Assembly (NCBI GenBank): GCA_021817565.1 | Contig: JAKAUP010000004.1 | Coordinates: 1-64,000, forward strand | Reading direction: 5' to 3' | From: Microcaldota archaeon | Lineage (GTDB): Archaea; Micrarchaeota; Micrarchaeia; Micrarchaeales; Micrarchaeaceae | Length of the DNA stretch: 64,000 bases | Shown: positions 52,239-57,803 of the stretch, in pieces | Position numbering within the stretch: the stretch's first letter is position 1 | How the letters are laid out: each line of letters begins with the position of its first letter | Notes under the pieces: generated by a model | The model's database searches: none | What the model saw: the letters and a program-made list of their open reading frames with translations, nothing else | What the model was told of the DNA's origin: nothing | Made by a program: the position numbers and the translations under genes

Positions 52239-53138
52239 TCACTTTGCGCTCTTGATGCTTCCTGAAGCGAAAACTCTAGGTACCTGTGTTCTTGCAAGCA
52301 TCATGTAGTCGCCTTCCCTAACTGAGAGCGCCTTGTCCAATTTTAAGCTGATTGTATTGCCATTGAACGCCTTGACGTATGCAGTAGTATAAGAAAAATT
52401 TGACACAAACAGATACGCCTTCCCTATTGCTATCTCTTCAGGATGTATCTTTATCGTGTTTATCTCCGCCTCGATCTCTGCTGAAGGCACCTTCTTTTCT
52501 TTGGTGAGCAGGTCGCCTTTTTCCGCGTCCGCCCCATCGATCCCTTTTACCGCAAGTCCGACCCTTGTTCCGCCCTCTGCTATCTGCACGTCAACGTCGT
52601 TTGACTGTATTGACCTTATAGTAACCTCCTTTCCGGACGAACTTAGAATCAGCTTATCGTGGACGGAAACAGACCCTGAAGTTACTATACCTAGGAGTAC
52701 CGCACCAACTCCCTTTACTGTGAATGACTTGTCTATATCAACTCTTGTAGGACCTCCTCTCTCCGGTCTCATTTCCGTTATTATTGATTGCAGATTCTCC
52801 TGCTCCGCAACGATTTCTCCGGAGATTGATATCCCTTTTGTCAGGTCTGATATGTCATTGTGGCTGGTTAGTATTACACGCTTTTTAGTCGTAGAGCAGG
52901 CTAACAACGCTTCCGCCATGTACTTGTCCACTTTCTTTGTGGATACTATGACCACATCAGACAGCATTATGCATTCGCATAGCGCATGTATCTTGTCCTC
53001 TACGCTGCCGGGAGCCAGAGCGGTTATATGATTGCCTGAATAGACGCCGTTGTAGTATATGATGCTGTTCTCGCTCCCTTTCTTGCCCAATACCCTGCCT
53101 AGTTCTGGATCCAGGAGTACAGAAACCACAAAGTTCAT
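52239..53138 (-). CDS. EF-Tu/SelB-like protein without a GTPase site
   Basis: 299 residues. The N-terminal 110 residues fall where the GTPase domain of SelB/EF-Tu should be but have no P-loop GxxxxGK[ST], no DxxG and no NKxD; only a Rossmann-like strand pattern remains (VVIVSTKKVDKYM, RVILTSHND). From about residue 128 a good translation-factor domain II follows (DKSFTVKGVGAVLLGIVTSG, then LSSSGKEVTIRSIQSND and GTRVGLAVKGID), and domain III follows that. Such GTPase-dead paralogues of SelB are known in archaea but have no agreed role. Convergent with the prepilin-peptidase-like gene. Confidence 0.8.
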   Translation of the reverse strand: MNFVVSVLLDPELGRVLGKKGSENSIIYYNGVYSGNHITALAPGSVEDKIHALCECIMLSDVVIVSTKKVDKYMAEALLACSTTKKRVILTSHNDISDLTKGISISGEIVAEQENLQSIITEMRPERGGPTRVDIDKSFTVKGVGAVLLGIVTSGSVSVHDKLILSSSGKEVTIRSIQSNDVDVQIAEGGTRVGLAVKGIDGADAEKGDLLTKEKKVPSAEIEAEINTIKIHPEEIAIGKAYLFVSNFSYTTAYVKAFNGNTISLKLDKALSVREGDYMMLARTQVPRVFASGSIKSAK

Positions 53139-53218: not shown

Positions 53219-53548
53219 ATGGAGAATGAAAGTATTAGAGAAGTGAGTTTTAAGGAAGCTGTTGAAATCAGCGAGAAAGGAAAACGCCAGATTATATGGC
53301 TGGGCAGGGAACCCGCTAGCTATATATCAGATATTCTGGGATTAGAATCAGGTAGTATCTCAAAAAAGAATCCTGAAGAGATAGTATATATGGAAAAGAG
53401 CGAGCTTAAGGACCTCGAAAAATCCGTTTTGCTCTGTTACCATGGAAACACTTCCGGATTTATAAGCAAGTTTCTGATGAAGCAGCATGCGATAGAGACG
53501 TACAGCCTCAAGGGAGGAATAACCGCAATTGTCGGTGAGATATTCTAA
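53219..53548 (+). CDS. Rhodanese-like protein
   Basis: 109 residues, a single short rhodanese domain. VLLCYHGNTSGFISKFLMKQ (about 70-89) has the active-site Cys (about 73) with a CxxGxxS loop, and YSLKGGITAIVG (about 94-105) is the LxGG end strand. Rhodaneses carry sulfur on a persulfide Cys. The first strand block (IREVSFKEAVEISE) replaces the usual SVxELKE start, so it is divergent. A TATA-like CTATATATAT lies about 38 bases before the ATG. It is directly upstream of the regulator-CysD-CysN block, and sulfur handling would be a common theme. Confidence 0.75.
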   Translation: MENESIREVSFKEAVEISEKGKRQIIWLGREPASYISDILGLESGSISKKNPEEIVYMEKSELKDLEKSVLLCYHGNTSGFISKFLMKQHAIETYSLKGGITAIVGEIF

Positions 53549-53632: not shown

Positions 53633-53672
53633 TTTATATATCTTTCATGTAATATAATGTTATAACATTATA
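53633..53672 (+). promoter_or_regulatory. Promoter with a 20-bp palindromic operator
   Basis: TTTATATA at 53633-53640 is a TATA box, itself between the arms AAAGAT and ATCTTT. TATAATGTTA followed by TAACATTATA at 53653-53672 is a perfect 20-bp palindrome. The expected start of transcription, about 26 bases after the TATA centre, falls in its middle. The ribbon-helix-helix gene starts 14 bases further on, so this is a likely operator for that protein. Confidence 0.6.
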
Positions 53673-53686
53673 ATATATGTGATGGC

Positions 53687-53926
53687 TTGGATTTCAGACG
53701 AAGCAAGAGAAAATATACCACTATAACTATACCTTCAGCCCTCTTCTCAAAGGTGAAGGAAAGGATAGAAGGCACCGGGTTTTCATCAGTATCCGATTAC
53801 GTCACTTACATACTCAGAGAAACAATAACTGACATGGAGATCTCAAAAAATAAGGGCAGGAAGGCTGATGACGTAACGGTAATCGAGAGGCTTAAGGCAT
53901 TGGGTTACATTAATAATGACAAGTGA
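53687..53926 (+). CDS. Ribbon-helix-helix DNA-binding regulator
   Basis: 79 residues from a TTG at 53687. KRKYTTITIPSALFSKVKERIEGTGFSSVSDYVTYILRE (about 6-44) follows the ribbon-helix-helix pattern: a strand with alternating polar residues, then two helices with the S-S-DYV turn. Such proteins bind palindromic DNA as dimers or dimer pairs. A perfect 20-bp palindrome lies just upstream, so self-regulation is likely. No ATG is in frame near the start; TGATGG precedes the TTG. It overlaps the next gene by 11 bases, so it is the first gene of the CysD-CysN operon. Confidence 0.8.
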   Translation: MDFRRSKRKYTTITIPSALFSKVKERIEGTGFSSVSDYVTYILRETITDMEISKNKGRKADDVTVIERLKALGYINNDK

Positions 53927-54230
53927 GTTCATGGCTGCAATCAATAGAAATGCGTTATCGGACATAGAGAAAATATTGCATGAAAACCCGTCCAAGAAGA
54001 ACTGGGAAAGGGTTCAAAGCGCTTTGAAGCAATCTGGAGCGAAATATTATGAGGTTGTTTATGCTGTAGGGGGTATAAAAAGGGAGGATGACCTTAGAAA
54101 GTCTATCGTCAGAATTTTTGATTCGAAACGGAAGCTGTTGGGAGAGCTCCCTGTTTTTTCCAGCGAGAAAAAGGATTTTGACGGGGCACTCTATTACCTG
54201 AGAAAACTTGTGCAAAGGCCTCGTGCCTGA
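53916..54230 (+). CDS. Small protein of unknown function in the CysD-CysN operon
   Basis: 104 residues, helical N-terminal half (FMAAINRNALSDIEKILHE) and an alpha/beta C-terminal half (KYYEVVYAVGGIKREDDLRKSIVRIFDSK). No family recognised and no Cys at all. The ATG at 53916 overlaps the end of the regulator gene; an in-frame Met at residue 6 is the alternative. It may be a partner or adaptor for the CysD-like protein, whose gene begins 16 bases later, but there is no direct evidence. Confidence 0.65.
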   Translation: MTSEFMAAINRNALSDIEKILHENPSKKNWERVQSALKQSGAKYYEVVYAVGGIKREDDLRKSIVRIFDSKRKLLGELPVFSSEKKDFDGALYYLRKLVQRPRA

Positions 54231-54246
54231 ATGTATTGGTGTTCCT

Positions 54247-55035
54247 ATGATAAAACAAAATGTAGACCAGCTTGAGGAGAAAAGCGTATATGTGATAAGG
54301 GAAGCGGCATCACGCTTCAAGAAGATTGCGGCCTTGTGGAGCATGGGAAAGGATTCTACCGCTATGCTTGCAATAGCCAGGAAGGCATTCCTGGGAAAGG
54401 TACCATTTCCTGTGATTCACATAGACAATGGAATAGACTTTCCGGAAAGTTATAAATTCAGGGACGATCTTGCAGAGAAGTGGGGGATGGAGGTGATAGT
54501 TGCAAAAAGCAAGATAAAGCCAGAGATATCGGGCTATAGCTGCTGCGGTTCAAACAAGACCGTGGCTCTCAAAAAGGTGCTCGCTGAATATGGCTTTGAG
54601 GCCCTCATAGTATCGATAAGGAGGGATGAACATGCTGTTCGTGCAAAGGAGAGATATATAAGCCCCAGAGACAGAGACTTCAAATGGGACTACAAGAACC
54701 AGCCGGCAGAGGTATGGAACAGCTACTCTTCCAAGCTTGACAACAAGGGCCACTTGAGGGTGCACCCGCTGCTTGACTGGAACGAGATAGACATATGGTC
54801 ATACATAAAGAAAAACAAGGTTCCCATAAATCCCCTTTATTATTCAAACAACGGCTATAGGTATAGAAGCTTAGGTTGCACTCACTGCACAGTGCCAATA
54901 AAGTCAAACGCGAAAAGCATAGATGCGATAATTAAGGAACTGGAGTCCACAAAGGTGGAAGAGAGGTCTGGAAGAGAGCAGGACAAAGAAAAGGCTTATA
55001 TCATGGAAAAGCTTAGGTCACTTGGTTACATGTGA
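54247..55035 (+). CDS. CysD-like ATP sulfurylase subunit with CC and CxxC motifs
   Basis: 262 residues from the ATG at 54247. PP-loop ATPase of the PAPS-reductase/CysD group: WSMGKDSTAML (31-41), RRDEHAVRAKERYISPRDRDF (125-145), HPLLDWNEIDIWSYI (173-187) and the C-terminal SGREQDKEKA...GYM that matches the end of bacterial CysD. CysD with CysN makes adenylyl sulfate from ATP and sulfate. Unlike bacterial CysD, it has CysCys at 99-100 and CTHC at 211-214, a CC...CxxC set like the [4Fe-4S] ligands of APS reductases. The reductase's C-terminal catalytic Cys is absent. Followed by the CysN-like gene after 10 bases. Confidence 0.82.
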   Translation: MIKQNVDQLEEKSVYVIREAASRFKKIAALWSMGKDSTAMLAIARKAFLGKVPFPVIHIDNGIDFPESYKFRDDLAEKWGMEVIVAKSKIKPEISGYSCCGSNKTVALKKVLAEYGFEALIVSIRRDEHAVRAKERYISPRDRDFKWDYKNQPAEVWNSYSSKLDNKGHLRVHPLLDWNEIDIWSYIKKNKVPINPLYYSNNGYRYRSLGCTHCTVPIKSNAKSIDAIIKELESTKVEERSGREQDKEKAYIMEKLRSLGYM

Positions 55036-55045
55036 GTGTGGTTTG

Positions 55046-56260
55046 ATGATAATAAGAGAAGTGACGCTGCTGGGTCACAAGGATCATGGAAAATCCACGC
55101 TTATAGGAAATATGCTCATACTGACTAAGACTGTTACAAAAGATAGAATCGATAGTGCAAAAAGGATGAGCGAGAGGCTTGGCAGGGCTTTTGAACCTGG
55201 TTTCCTGCTTGACAGCTTTGAGGAGGAACAGGAGGACGCGATGACCATAGACACTACTCGCGCACAAATAATGCACGGAGGTAAGGCGTTCGAATTTATA
55301 GACGTGCCAGGGCATGAGGAGCTTATAAAGAACATGATAAGCGGTGCATCTCATGCACGCTTCGCAATACTGGTCGTATCAGCTAAGAGCAGGGAGGGGA
55401 TAAGGACGCAGACAAAGAGACATCTCTTCATAGCGAAGATGATGGGTATAGAGAAGGTAGTTGTGTGCGTTAACAAAATGGACACTGTGGGATACAGCCA
55501 GATTCGGTTCGTAAAGATATCTAATGAACTCAAGGAGTTTTTGGAAAGGATAGGCTTTGGGCGCAACTCAGTCTTTTTTGTGCCGGTTTCCGCTTACAAC
55601 GGGGATAACATACTCAAGCTTTCTGATAAGATGGAGTGGTATAAAGGAAAACCTCTGCTGGATGCGCTCTCATCCCTCTCGCCAAAAAAGCCCGATAACA
55701 AGAGACCTTTGAGATTTATTTTTCAGGGAAGTATTGAGTCGGGTAAGAAGAGTTTGTGTATAGGTAACGTTGCAAGCGGGTTGCTGAAGAATGGTTCTGA
55801 GATTGTGGTTTCTCCAAACCTGATGGAATACTCAGTAGGAGAGATATTCACAAAAGGAAAAAGAGTTGGAAGTGCAAAGGCCGGGGAGAATGCCGCATTG
55901 CTTCTTCACCCAGAGCCAAAGGAGGATCTGAGGGGGATGGTAGGATCTGGGAAGGAGAGCGTTGTACTGGGCAAAAGGGAGTTCAACGCACTCGTGTTCA
56001 GCACCGAGACAATCCCAAAAGAGGCAAAGATAAGGATTAACGGCATGGATCACGAATGTGCGATAGAAATAATGGAAGAGATTGATACTTCCACAGGTAT
56101 GCGCAAGAAGAGCAGTGTGATAAGGCCGTTGGAGGCAGGGATGGCGCACTTCAGGGTCAGTAGTCCGGTTTGCGTAGAACCTTTCTCCGTATCAGAGCAG
56201 ATTGGGCGGTTTACAATATACAAAAAGGAACAGTTTGTGGGACTCGGGGTAGTACAGTGA
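55046..56260 (+). CDS. CysN-like EF-Tu-family GTPase
   Basis: 404 residues from the ATG at 55046. All GTPase motifs are intact: P-loop GHKDHGKS (10-17), the switch I Thr in AMTIDTT, DVPGH (86-90) and NKMD (143-146). EEEQEDAMTID and GASHARFAILVVSAKSREG fit the CysN/EF-1A branch. Domains II and III follow (about 210-404). CysN drives APS formation by CysD through GTP hydrolysis. It is shorter than bacterial CysN (about 475) and lacks a C-terminal APS-kinase part. Immediately after the CysD-like gene and 4 bases before the phosphohydrolase gene. An EF-1A paralogue with another partner is the alternative. Confidence 0.8.
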   Translation: MIIREVTLLGHKDHGKSTLIGNMLILTKTVTKDRIDSAKRMSERLGRAFEPGFLLDSFEEEQEDAMTIDTTRAQIMHGGKAFEFIDVPGHEELIKNMISGASHARFAILVVSAKSREGIRTQTKRHLFIAKMMGIEKVVVCVNKMDTVGYSQIRFVKISNELKEFLERIGFGRNSVFFVPVSAYNGDNILKLSDKMEWYKGKPLLDALSSLSPKKPDNKRPLRFIFQGSIESGKKSLCIGNVASGLLKNGSEIVVSPNLMEYSVGEIFTKGKRVGSAKAGENAALLLHPEPKEDLRGMVGSGKESVVLGKREFNALVFSTETIPKEAKIRINGMDHECAIEIMEEIDTSTGMRKKSSVIRPLEAGMAHFRVSSPVCVEPFSVSEQIGRFTIYKKEQFVGLGVVQ

Positions 56261-56264
56261 TCGT

Positions 56265-57803
56265 ATGGCTTTGACAAAAAACAGAAAATTATATCTTATA
56301 GGCATAGATGCAGCACCATTGTGGATTATCAAAGAGAACTATAAGAAGTACAAGATGGATGGTTTCGCAAGGTTCTTCGATGAGGGGATACTGACCGAAT
56401 TGGAGTCTACCCTTCCGCCAATGACTGGTCCTTCCTGGCCGAGTATGTATACCGGTGTAAGGCCCGGTGTCCATGGGATCCCTGATTTCTTCACATTAAA
56501 GTCGAACTATACAAAGGAGGTTGCTTACTACGACCCGGAGATAATAGAACCCTTTTGGGAACGGCTCGGAAAGGACGGGATCAGGTCGCTCTTGATAACA
56601 CCCGCAATGGCGGTAAGGCTTCCGAAGAGTGAGAATGTTGATATGATGACGGGTTTTCCGCTTCCGCCCCGCTTCAGTTCCGAGGAGATAAGGCGCGCAG
56701 CCAAGAAGTATGGCTTCGAAGGCGAACCTAACATAGAAAAGATGATAAAAAGCAAGGAGATGAGTCTTGCCGAGGCCTCAAAGAGGTATGTAGAAAGCAT
56801 AAAGAAAAGGGGAGAACTGGCGAAGCACCTCATGCTCAGGAATAACTACGAGCTGTCATTCATCTGCTTTACCGAGACCGACAGGATACAGCATTTTTCC
56901 CTAAACCTTCCAGAATGGAAGAGTTATGTGCTCCCGCTTTATCAGGAGATATCGAAATTCCTAGAATGGACTGTAGAGAATGCAGAAAAAGAAGGAGCAA
57001 GAATCATGCTTGTCTCAGACCACGGCGCACAGCCGATAAAGAGCAAGTTTTTGATGAACGCCTGGCTTATAAATAACGGTTATGCGAGGCTGAAGCAGGA
57101 GATAGAGGAGCAGAATAAAAAGACTGGCGGCAACAGCAGCAATTTGAAGTATACTGTAAGGGAGAAGATAATAAGAAGCAGGCTAAGAAAAGTCTATGAT
57201 AAACTCCCGAATATGGGGAAGAGCGTGGCGAAGGACGTTTTGGGAAACTTGCTTGTTGCGTCTTCTGGGGAGGATTACACACGCATACACGACTTTGATT
57301 TTGATATGAAAAGAACTGTCGCATTCAGCAGCATATCAAACTGGACCGTGTGCTCCATATATATAAATGACAGCCGCTTTGACGAAGGCGTTGTAAGCGT
57401 TACGAAGAAGCGGGCAATCAAAAACGAGCTAATACGCAAACTCATGCTGGTAAATGACGAGAATGGAAACAAGCTGATGGTAAGGGCTTTCGATGCTGAC
57501 AAGTATTATGAAGGGACGCAGATGTTTATTGCGCCAGACGTGATGGTTGAGATAAAGAAGGGTTACTTCATAGATGTTTTTGGCTACCTTAAAAGCGGGG
57601 GGCTGTTCATGAAGCCGGAAATGGCAAAACGCGGGGATCACACCAATGAAGGCATATTCGGCGCTATCAGCTACGGTGACGGGGGGCGCAAGACTACGAA
57701 GCATCCTGCAAGCAATCCTTCAGTCTACCAGATAAACCCAACCGTGCTCTCCTACTTCGGGATACCACCCGAGAATGACCGCAGGTACAGGAAGATTCTC
57801 TAA
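56265..57803 (+). CDS. Alkaline-phosphatase-superfamily phosphohydrolase/phosphomutase
   Basis: 512 residues. Metal and active-site residues of the type I phosphodiesterase/AP superfamily are seen: GIDAAP (about 9-14), LPPMTGPSWPSMYTG with the nucleophile Thr (about 48-62), TETDRIQHF (about 203-211), SDHGAQP (about 251-257) and GDHTNEGIFG (about 465-474). It resembles the archaeal predicted phosphohydrolase/phosphomutase group (COG3379). Substrates could be phosphodiesters, pyrophosphates or sulfate-linked nucleotides. Its place after CysD and CysN suggests it acts on the product or by-product of sulfate activation; that is inference. Its stop shares CTAA with the convergent membrane-protein gene. 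Confidence 0.85.
   Translation: MALTKNRKLYLIGIDAAPLWIIKENYKKYKMDGFARFFDEGILTELESTLPPMTGPSWPSMYTGVRPGVHGIPDFFTLKSNYTKEVAYYDPEIIEPFWERLGKDGIRSLLITPAMAVRLPKSENVDMMTGFPLPPRFSSEEIRRAAKKYGFEGEPNIEKMIKSKEMSLAEASKRYVESIKKRGELAKHLMLRNNYELSFICFTETDRIQHFSLNLPEWKSYVLPLYQEISKFLEWTVENAEKEGARIMLVSDHGAQPIKSKFLMNAWLINNGYARLKQEIEEQNKKTGGNSSNLKYTVREKIIRSRLRKVYDKLPNMGKSVAKDVLGNLLVASSGEDYTRIHDFDFDMKRTVAFSSISNWTVCSIYINDSRFDEGVVSVTKKRAIKNELIRKLMLVNDENGNKLMVRAFDADKYYEGTQMFIAPDVMVEIKKGYFIDVFGYLKSGGLFMKPEMAKRGDHTNEGIFGAISYGDGGRKTTKHPASNPSVYQINPTVLSYFGIPPENDRRYRKIL

Follow-up and report, generated by a model that had tools for sequence, protein, structure and literature searches.

The first 64,000 nucleotides of contig JAKAUP010000004.1 (hereafter the window), which belongs to a Micrarchaeota genome of 775 kb in 8 contigs that is 97% complete, carry a five-gene operon in which the ATP sulfurylase subunits CysD and CysN follow a ribbon-helix-helix (RHH) regulator and a small orphan protein and precede an enzyme of the alkaline-phosphatase (AP) superfamily. 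We are moderately inclined to read it as an autoregulated module that makes adenosine 5′-phosphosulfate (APS), the APS being spent on decorating a glycan or glycolipid of the cell surface with sulfur and not on cysteine. CysD, helped by the GTPase CysN, would make APS from ATP and sulfate; the APS would go to the decoration of the surface glycan or glycolipid; and the AP enzyme would most likely transfer or trim groups on a glycan made with the linked glycosyltransferase. The five genes, as the initial annotation had it, are all present and co-directional, and they are tightly packed, with overlaps or gaps of 5-20 bp. The features are as follows.

53655..53670, unstranded: predicted RHH operator, TAATGTTATAACATTA, a perfect palindrome (extended palindrome about 53649-53676)
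53687..53926, + strand: RHH (CopG-like) regulator, 79 aa, TTG start, recognised by its RHH sequence pattern
53879..53911, + strand: C-terminal tail of the RHH protein, VIERLKALGYI, common to CysD
53916..54230, + strand: orphan small protein, 104 aa, found between RHH and CysD across Micrarchaeota
54208..55035, + strand: CysD-type PP-loop ATP sulfurylase subunit (alternative start near 54238)
54541..54546, + strand: Cys-Cys, first half of the predicted [4Fe-4S] ligands, aligned with the CC of 7lhr
54877..54888, + strand: Cys-x-x-Cys, second half of the predicted [4Fe-4S] ligands, aligned with the CxxC of 7lhr
55000..55032, + strand: C-terminal tail of CysD, IMEKLRSLGYM, common to the RHH protein
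55022..56260, + strand: CysN-type GTPase, 412 aa (alternative start 55046)
56265..57803, + strand: AP-superfamily enzyme (PF01663)

The arrangement is conserved across the phylum. CysD was found in 94 of its 196 sampled genomes, at 53-92% identity, and the neighbourhoods were compared in 79 loci from named genomes. Among the 70 micrarchaeal loci the usual order is RHH-orphan-CysD-CysN: CysN follows CysD in 68, the orphan is kept in 64, and the RHH gene in 59 (45 in line and 14 divergent). An order kept in some 70 loci is not due to chance and is under selection; its loss in all relatives, the outcome on which the initial annotation would have been abandoned, was not seen. In other DPANN archaea (records titled Pacearchaeota, Nanoarchaeota, Aenigmatarchaeota, Diapherotrites and others) the module reads RHH-CysD-CysN, preceded or followed by an AP-superfamily gene and sometimes interrupted by a TauE or HIT-family gene. 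A TauE/SafE-type transporter gene lies between CysD and CysN in several of them (L099:8601-9536, L103:6121-6864, L168:10122-10931), and a HIT-family gene within or beside the operon (L100:4555-4998, L105:3968-4411, L168:8861-9307); HIT proteins can act on AMP conjugates, APS included. Loci L171-L175 hold CysD and AP, mostly together with a sulfatase-like gene and with no CysN within the fetched flanks; in some DPANN a neighbouring CysN may not be needed for CysD to work. Two further DPANN loci (L170:8313-13260 and L176:4224-10567) join a four-cysteine CysD and a CysN to CysQ-like, APS-kinase-like and sulfotransferase-like genes, all recognised by sequence only.

What the micrarchaeal genomes lack, among the families searched, is a known consumer of APS. 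CysD is the sole protein above the PF01507 threshold in the source genome. None of 46 CysD-bearing genomes yielded a CysH (apart from CysD no protein matched PF01507 strongly, and an additional weak match came from G065), a siroheme sulfite reductase (PF01077) or a sulfotransferase of PF13469 or PF00685, other sulfotransferase folds lying outside the search. No credible APS kinase appeared in 28 CysD-bearing genomes: the best match reached 23 bits, and since true APS kinases score near 200 (about 197-200), we took these weak matches as P-loop cross-matches. In 14 control genomes the sulfite-reductase and APS-kinase searches were positive in 11, the sulfotransferase search in only 2. As the consuming families were not found, ordinary sulfate assimilation, with this operon as its entry point, and standard sulfation from 3′-phosphoadenosine 5′-phosphosulfate (PAPS) are both unlikely. 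The remark in the initial annotation that no sulfate genes lie nearby thus holds locally and, for APS kinase, CysH, Pfam sulfotransferases and sulfite reductase, genome-wide; the complete pathway elsewhere that it had named as fatal to its proposal was not found.

CysD scores 135 bits with PF01507 (threshold 22.5) and 302 with the NCBIfam CysD model NF003587 (cut-off 195); the narrower TIGR02039 is not reached (223 against 397). Its PP-loop, SMGKDS, is intact, and it has residues conserved with the Pseudomonas CysDN structure 1zun. It further carries, at residues 102-103 (CC) and 214-217 (CxxC) as numbered from 54238, the pattern that binds a [4Fe-4S] cluster in APS reductases, as judged by alignment to the CysH-family reductase 7lhr. 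We found all four cysteines in 72 of 72 distinct micrarchaeal CysDs and in 15 of 25 other DPANN sequences, some of which have lost one or two; the full set is missing from the compared bacterial CysDs (L107, L109, L178, L183, L184 and L186), L110 being a partial case that retains CxxC. CysD therefore probably carries a [4Fe-4S] cluster on these ligands. In a maximum-likelihood tree whose inner branches and root are uncertain, the bacterial CysDs fall among archaeal four-cysteine sequences, a placement that fits loss of the site in bacteria. The presence of the APS-reductase cluster ligands in CysD suggests that bacterial CysD may descend from an iron-sulfur ancestor.

The RHH protein has no Pfam match and a weak NikR match. 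Upstream of its gene stands the palindrome TAATGT-N4-ACATTA, with 0 mismatches in the window, and through this site the regulator probably represses transcription of its own gene. Allowing up to one mismatch, 52 matches were found in the 1.05 Mb of the 79 loci where 3.5 were expected, and 48 of the 52 lie at RHH promoters. At two mismatches the search is uninformative in the window (3 found, 3.6 expected), and the case for the operator is made by the perfect site in the window and its conservation across loci. At the 14 RHH genes oriented away from the operon the palindrome is a related, AT-rich one. One of the four matches elsewhere, in L106, is a perfect site upstream of another operon, which encodes AP, UDP-sulfoquinovose synthase and an epimerase.

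The regulator and the enzyme also share an ending, L[RK]xLGY in its short form, which within the window is confined to these two proteins. The pattern [LIVM][RKEQSN]x[LM]GY closes 73 of 78 RHH open reading frames (ORFs), four of the other five having close variants, and 88 of 109 CysD-family ORFs. Outside the tested families it closes 3 of 4,653 ORFs, two of them very short ones close to CysD in L173 and L175. The RHH and CysD-family ORFs without it mostly have near-variants (LHALGYI, LRAFGYM) or truncated ends, or encode CysH proteins or bacterial CysDs, which end in the related KKxxGYF. In CysH the catalytic cysteine sits in the equivalent C-terminal end, and the CysD tail may close over an active site or the CysN interface. 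Because the RHH tail copies that of CysD, the regulator probably uses it to dock at the same place, be it CysN or the CysD active site, and transcription could then follow the state of the enzyme. In the literature searched, which comprised open-access papers only, we found no mention of the cysteines, the operator or the tail.

The surface destination is suggested by the AP enzyme and the company that the operon keeps. The AP protein passes PF01663 and is, like CysD, a firm member of its family; in it the candidate metal ligands (D15, D206, H210, D252, H253 and H459, assigned by family analogy) and the nucleophile T54 are invariant. The folds closest to it are those of phosphonoacetate hydrolase and of nucleotide pyrophosphatases, in a low-confidence model whose pLDDT of 70 was too weak for us to assign a substrate. 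Full flanks were available for 37 micrarchaeal loci: an AP-superfamily gene (PF01663 or sulfatase-type) lies nearby in 22, a GT4 glycosyltransferase gene in 15, and a UDP-sulfoquinovose synthase gene in 6. AP occurs in 31 of 46 CysD-bearing genomes (two weakly) as opposed to 3 of 34 others, and of these three G189 probably does have CysD; the association (Fisher P 1e-7 over all genomes, 0.04 inside the two main families) is partly phylogenetic. Where both are present, AP lies within 10 kb of CysD in 14 of 31 genomes (binomial P about 1e-15). The initial annotation had proposed APS for an unusual product that the hydrolase then processes: of the readings left, APS for such a product is the best, and the linkage of the hydrolase is genuine, although it adjoins CysN in only part of the relatives. 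Even at a distance from CysD, AP and GT4 genes are often found together. The operator before the second operon of L106 and the gene set of L169, described below, also speak for the surface reading.

Several observations weigh against a surface module of this kind. No APS-consuming enzyme, sulfotransferase included, was identified among the searched families, and 13 of the 37 full-flank loci have neither a glycan nor an AP neighbour. We noted no glycosyltransferase beside the operon in the window itself, and UDP-sulfoquinovose synthase is missing from the source genome and most relatives. At 20 further AP loci, far from CysD, the sole operator match stands at an RHH promoter (L203); the linkage of AP to the module may therefore be loose, and we rejected AP as an obligate member of the RHH regulon. 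Finally, CysN, although it passes PF00009, scores 217 with TIGR02034, below the cut-off of 336, and EF-1alpha models score higher. Its G motifs are intact (GHKDHGKST, DVPGHE and NKMD), and it has no APS-kinase domain.

A more specific version, which we put forward tentatively and hold to be rather unlikely, is a PAPS-free pathway in which APS itself is the donor, by reduction on an iron-sulfur CysD or by transfer on the AP enzyme, while the repressor senses the enzyme through the tail copy. Its two branches deserve separate discussion. In the first, CysD would be bifunctional, making APS and then reducing it at the [4Fe-4S] site to sulfite, from which UDP-sulfoquinovose synthase, an enzyme that uses sulfite (PMC4388408), would make a sulfonated sugar. 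The invariance of the four cluster cysteines in Micrarchaeota, the absence of CysH and of a credible APS kinase from the searched genomes, and the synthase gene beside the operon in 6 loci speak for it. So does L169, from a related DPANN genome with no clear CysH: there AP, UDP-sulfoquinovose synthase, thioredoxin-like and epimerase genes are transcribed divergently from the module, and the thioredoxin-like gene follows the synthase. However, the catalytic C-terminal ECGxH of CysH is absent from CysD, LRSLGYM standing in its place, and the site alone does not imply APS reduction, since four-cysteine CysDs also adjoin the APS-kinase-like and sulfotransferase-like genes of L170 and L176. Some DPANN CysDs have, moreover, lost part of the site, and the synthase is present in only 4 of 46 CysD-bearing genomes; 5 genomes with no match to CysD have it too. 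We regard bifunctionality as unlikely. On the same patchy distribution we rejected the synthase as a general product gene, its link being one of local adjacency. A true CysH, with CC, CxxC and ECGIH, is encoded at L179:5203-5937 (- strand), in a Pacearchaeota genome that also has AP-CysD-TauE-CysN.

In the second branch the AP enzyme itself would be a PAPS-free sulfotransferase that takes the sulfuryl group of APS and places it on the glycan. The AP-CysD linkage recurs in several DPANN groups, with overlapping genes in L102 and L105 and no CysN nearby in L171-L175; the AP-superfamily active-site pattern, with its Thr nucleophile, is intact; and no Pfam sulfotransferase was found. Yet the nearest folds of the low-confidence model are hydrolase and pyrophosphatases, which makes plain hydrolysis equally likely, and AP is missing from about a third of the CysD-bearing genomes. 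We know of no AP-family (PF01663) member that uses APS, and such a transfer seems to us unlikely as well.

The operon could also belong to an incomplete pathway kept for the exchange of intermediates with a host archaeon, a suggestion made for DPANN from acid mine drainage (PMC12153355). Micrarchaeota are regarded as dependent on hosts, and three contigs that binning assigned to the host group, Thermoplasmata (L079, L080 and L086, one of 257 kb), carry orphan-CysD-CysN-sulfatase without RHH. In the tree the CysDs of two of these contigs nest inside the micrarchaeal clade; gene transfer between symbiont and host group is possible, as is misbinning. We consider exchange improbable: APS is charged and labile, no conserved exporter gene lies beside the micrarchaeal operon, and the glycan-gene linkage and dedicated regulator suggest an internal product.

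More improbable still is a CysDN that has lost sulfate activation and been repurposed, for example to adenylylate or thiolate another substrate. The GTPase resembles EF-1alpha at least as closely as it does CysN, and other PP-loop sulfur enzymes have cysteines similar to the additional ones seen here, but CysD has residues conserved with 1zun and is close in sequence to CysDs from sulfation contexts (L170, L176 and L178). Least probable is ordinary sulfate assimilation completed by genes elsewhere in the genome. Many bacteria do begin the pathway with CysDN, but the later enzymes were not found in nearly complete genomes while most controls were positive, so that this reading is largely refuted and would need non-homologous replacements.

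The autoregulated APS module that we favour can be set beside known systems. Like the Pseudomonas CysDN (1zun), it pairs a PP-loop CysD above the NF003587 cut-off with a co-operonic, EF-1alpha-like GTPase; unlike it, it has the four cysteines, a shorter CysD, no CysC fusion and an RHH regulator of its own, in a genome without detected CysH, APS kinase or Pfam sulfotransferase. With the assimilatory APS reductase CysH, CysD shares the fold family and the CC...CxxC ligand pattern, but it lacks the catalytic tail and has a partner GTPase. The closest published arrangement, CopG-Sat-DHH pApase-PF01663-APS kinase with an adjacent TauE in Pyrococcus yayanosii (PMC8268124), likewise combines a CopG/RHH gene, an ATP sulfurylase and a PF01663 enzyme, TauE being found in some DPANN relatives; here CysDN takes the place of Sat, there is no credible APS kinase, and no pApase was seen in the operon (a genome-wide pApase search was not made). 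RelB/RelE offers an RHH repressor with a partner-binding tail whose partner is the co-repressor (PMC2812701), whereas the micrarchaeal RHH tail copies that of a metabolic enzyme of the same operon and no toxin is evident.

The orphan protein matches neither Pfam nor any other known family. Its AlphaFold model (pLDDT 79) predicts a small alpha/beta protein, and a fold search with that model gave no significant match. Upstream, the window encodes a GlpE-like short rhodanese with a CYHGNTS loop (53219-53548), genus-restricted among the loci examined, and a SelB/EF-1alpha-like protein (52239-53138, - strand) that matches in the domain-2 region only and has no recognisable GTPase domain. The suggestion that the module moves sulfur in concert with this rhodanese was not borne out, as the rhodanese is not conserved with the operon: elsewhere it occurs only in the sister genome, separated from the operon by other genes, and we rejected the partnership.

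Surveys have recorded DPANN sulfate adenylyltransferase as incomplete pathways or sulfur metabolism (PMC12153355, PMC8091004). In our comparison the CysDN set described here appears as a conserved, dedicated and regulated module whose role is likely at the cell surface. Such a role bears on how tiny symbiotic archaea build their envelopes, and a regulator that carries its enzyme's tail would, if true, be a simple feedback route from enzyme to transcription.

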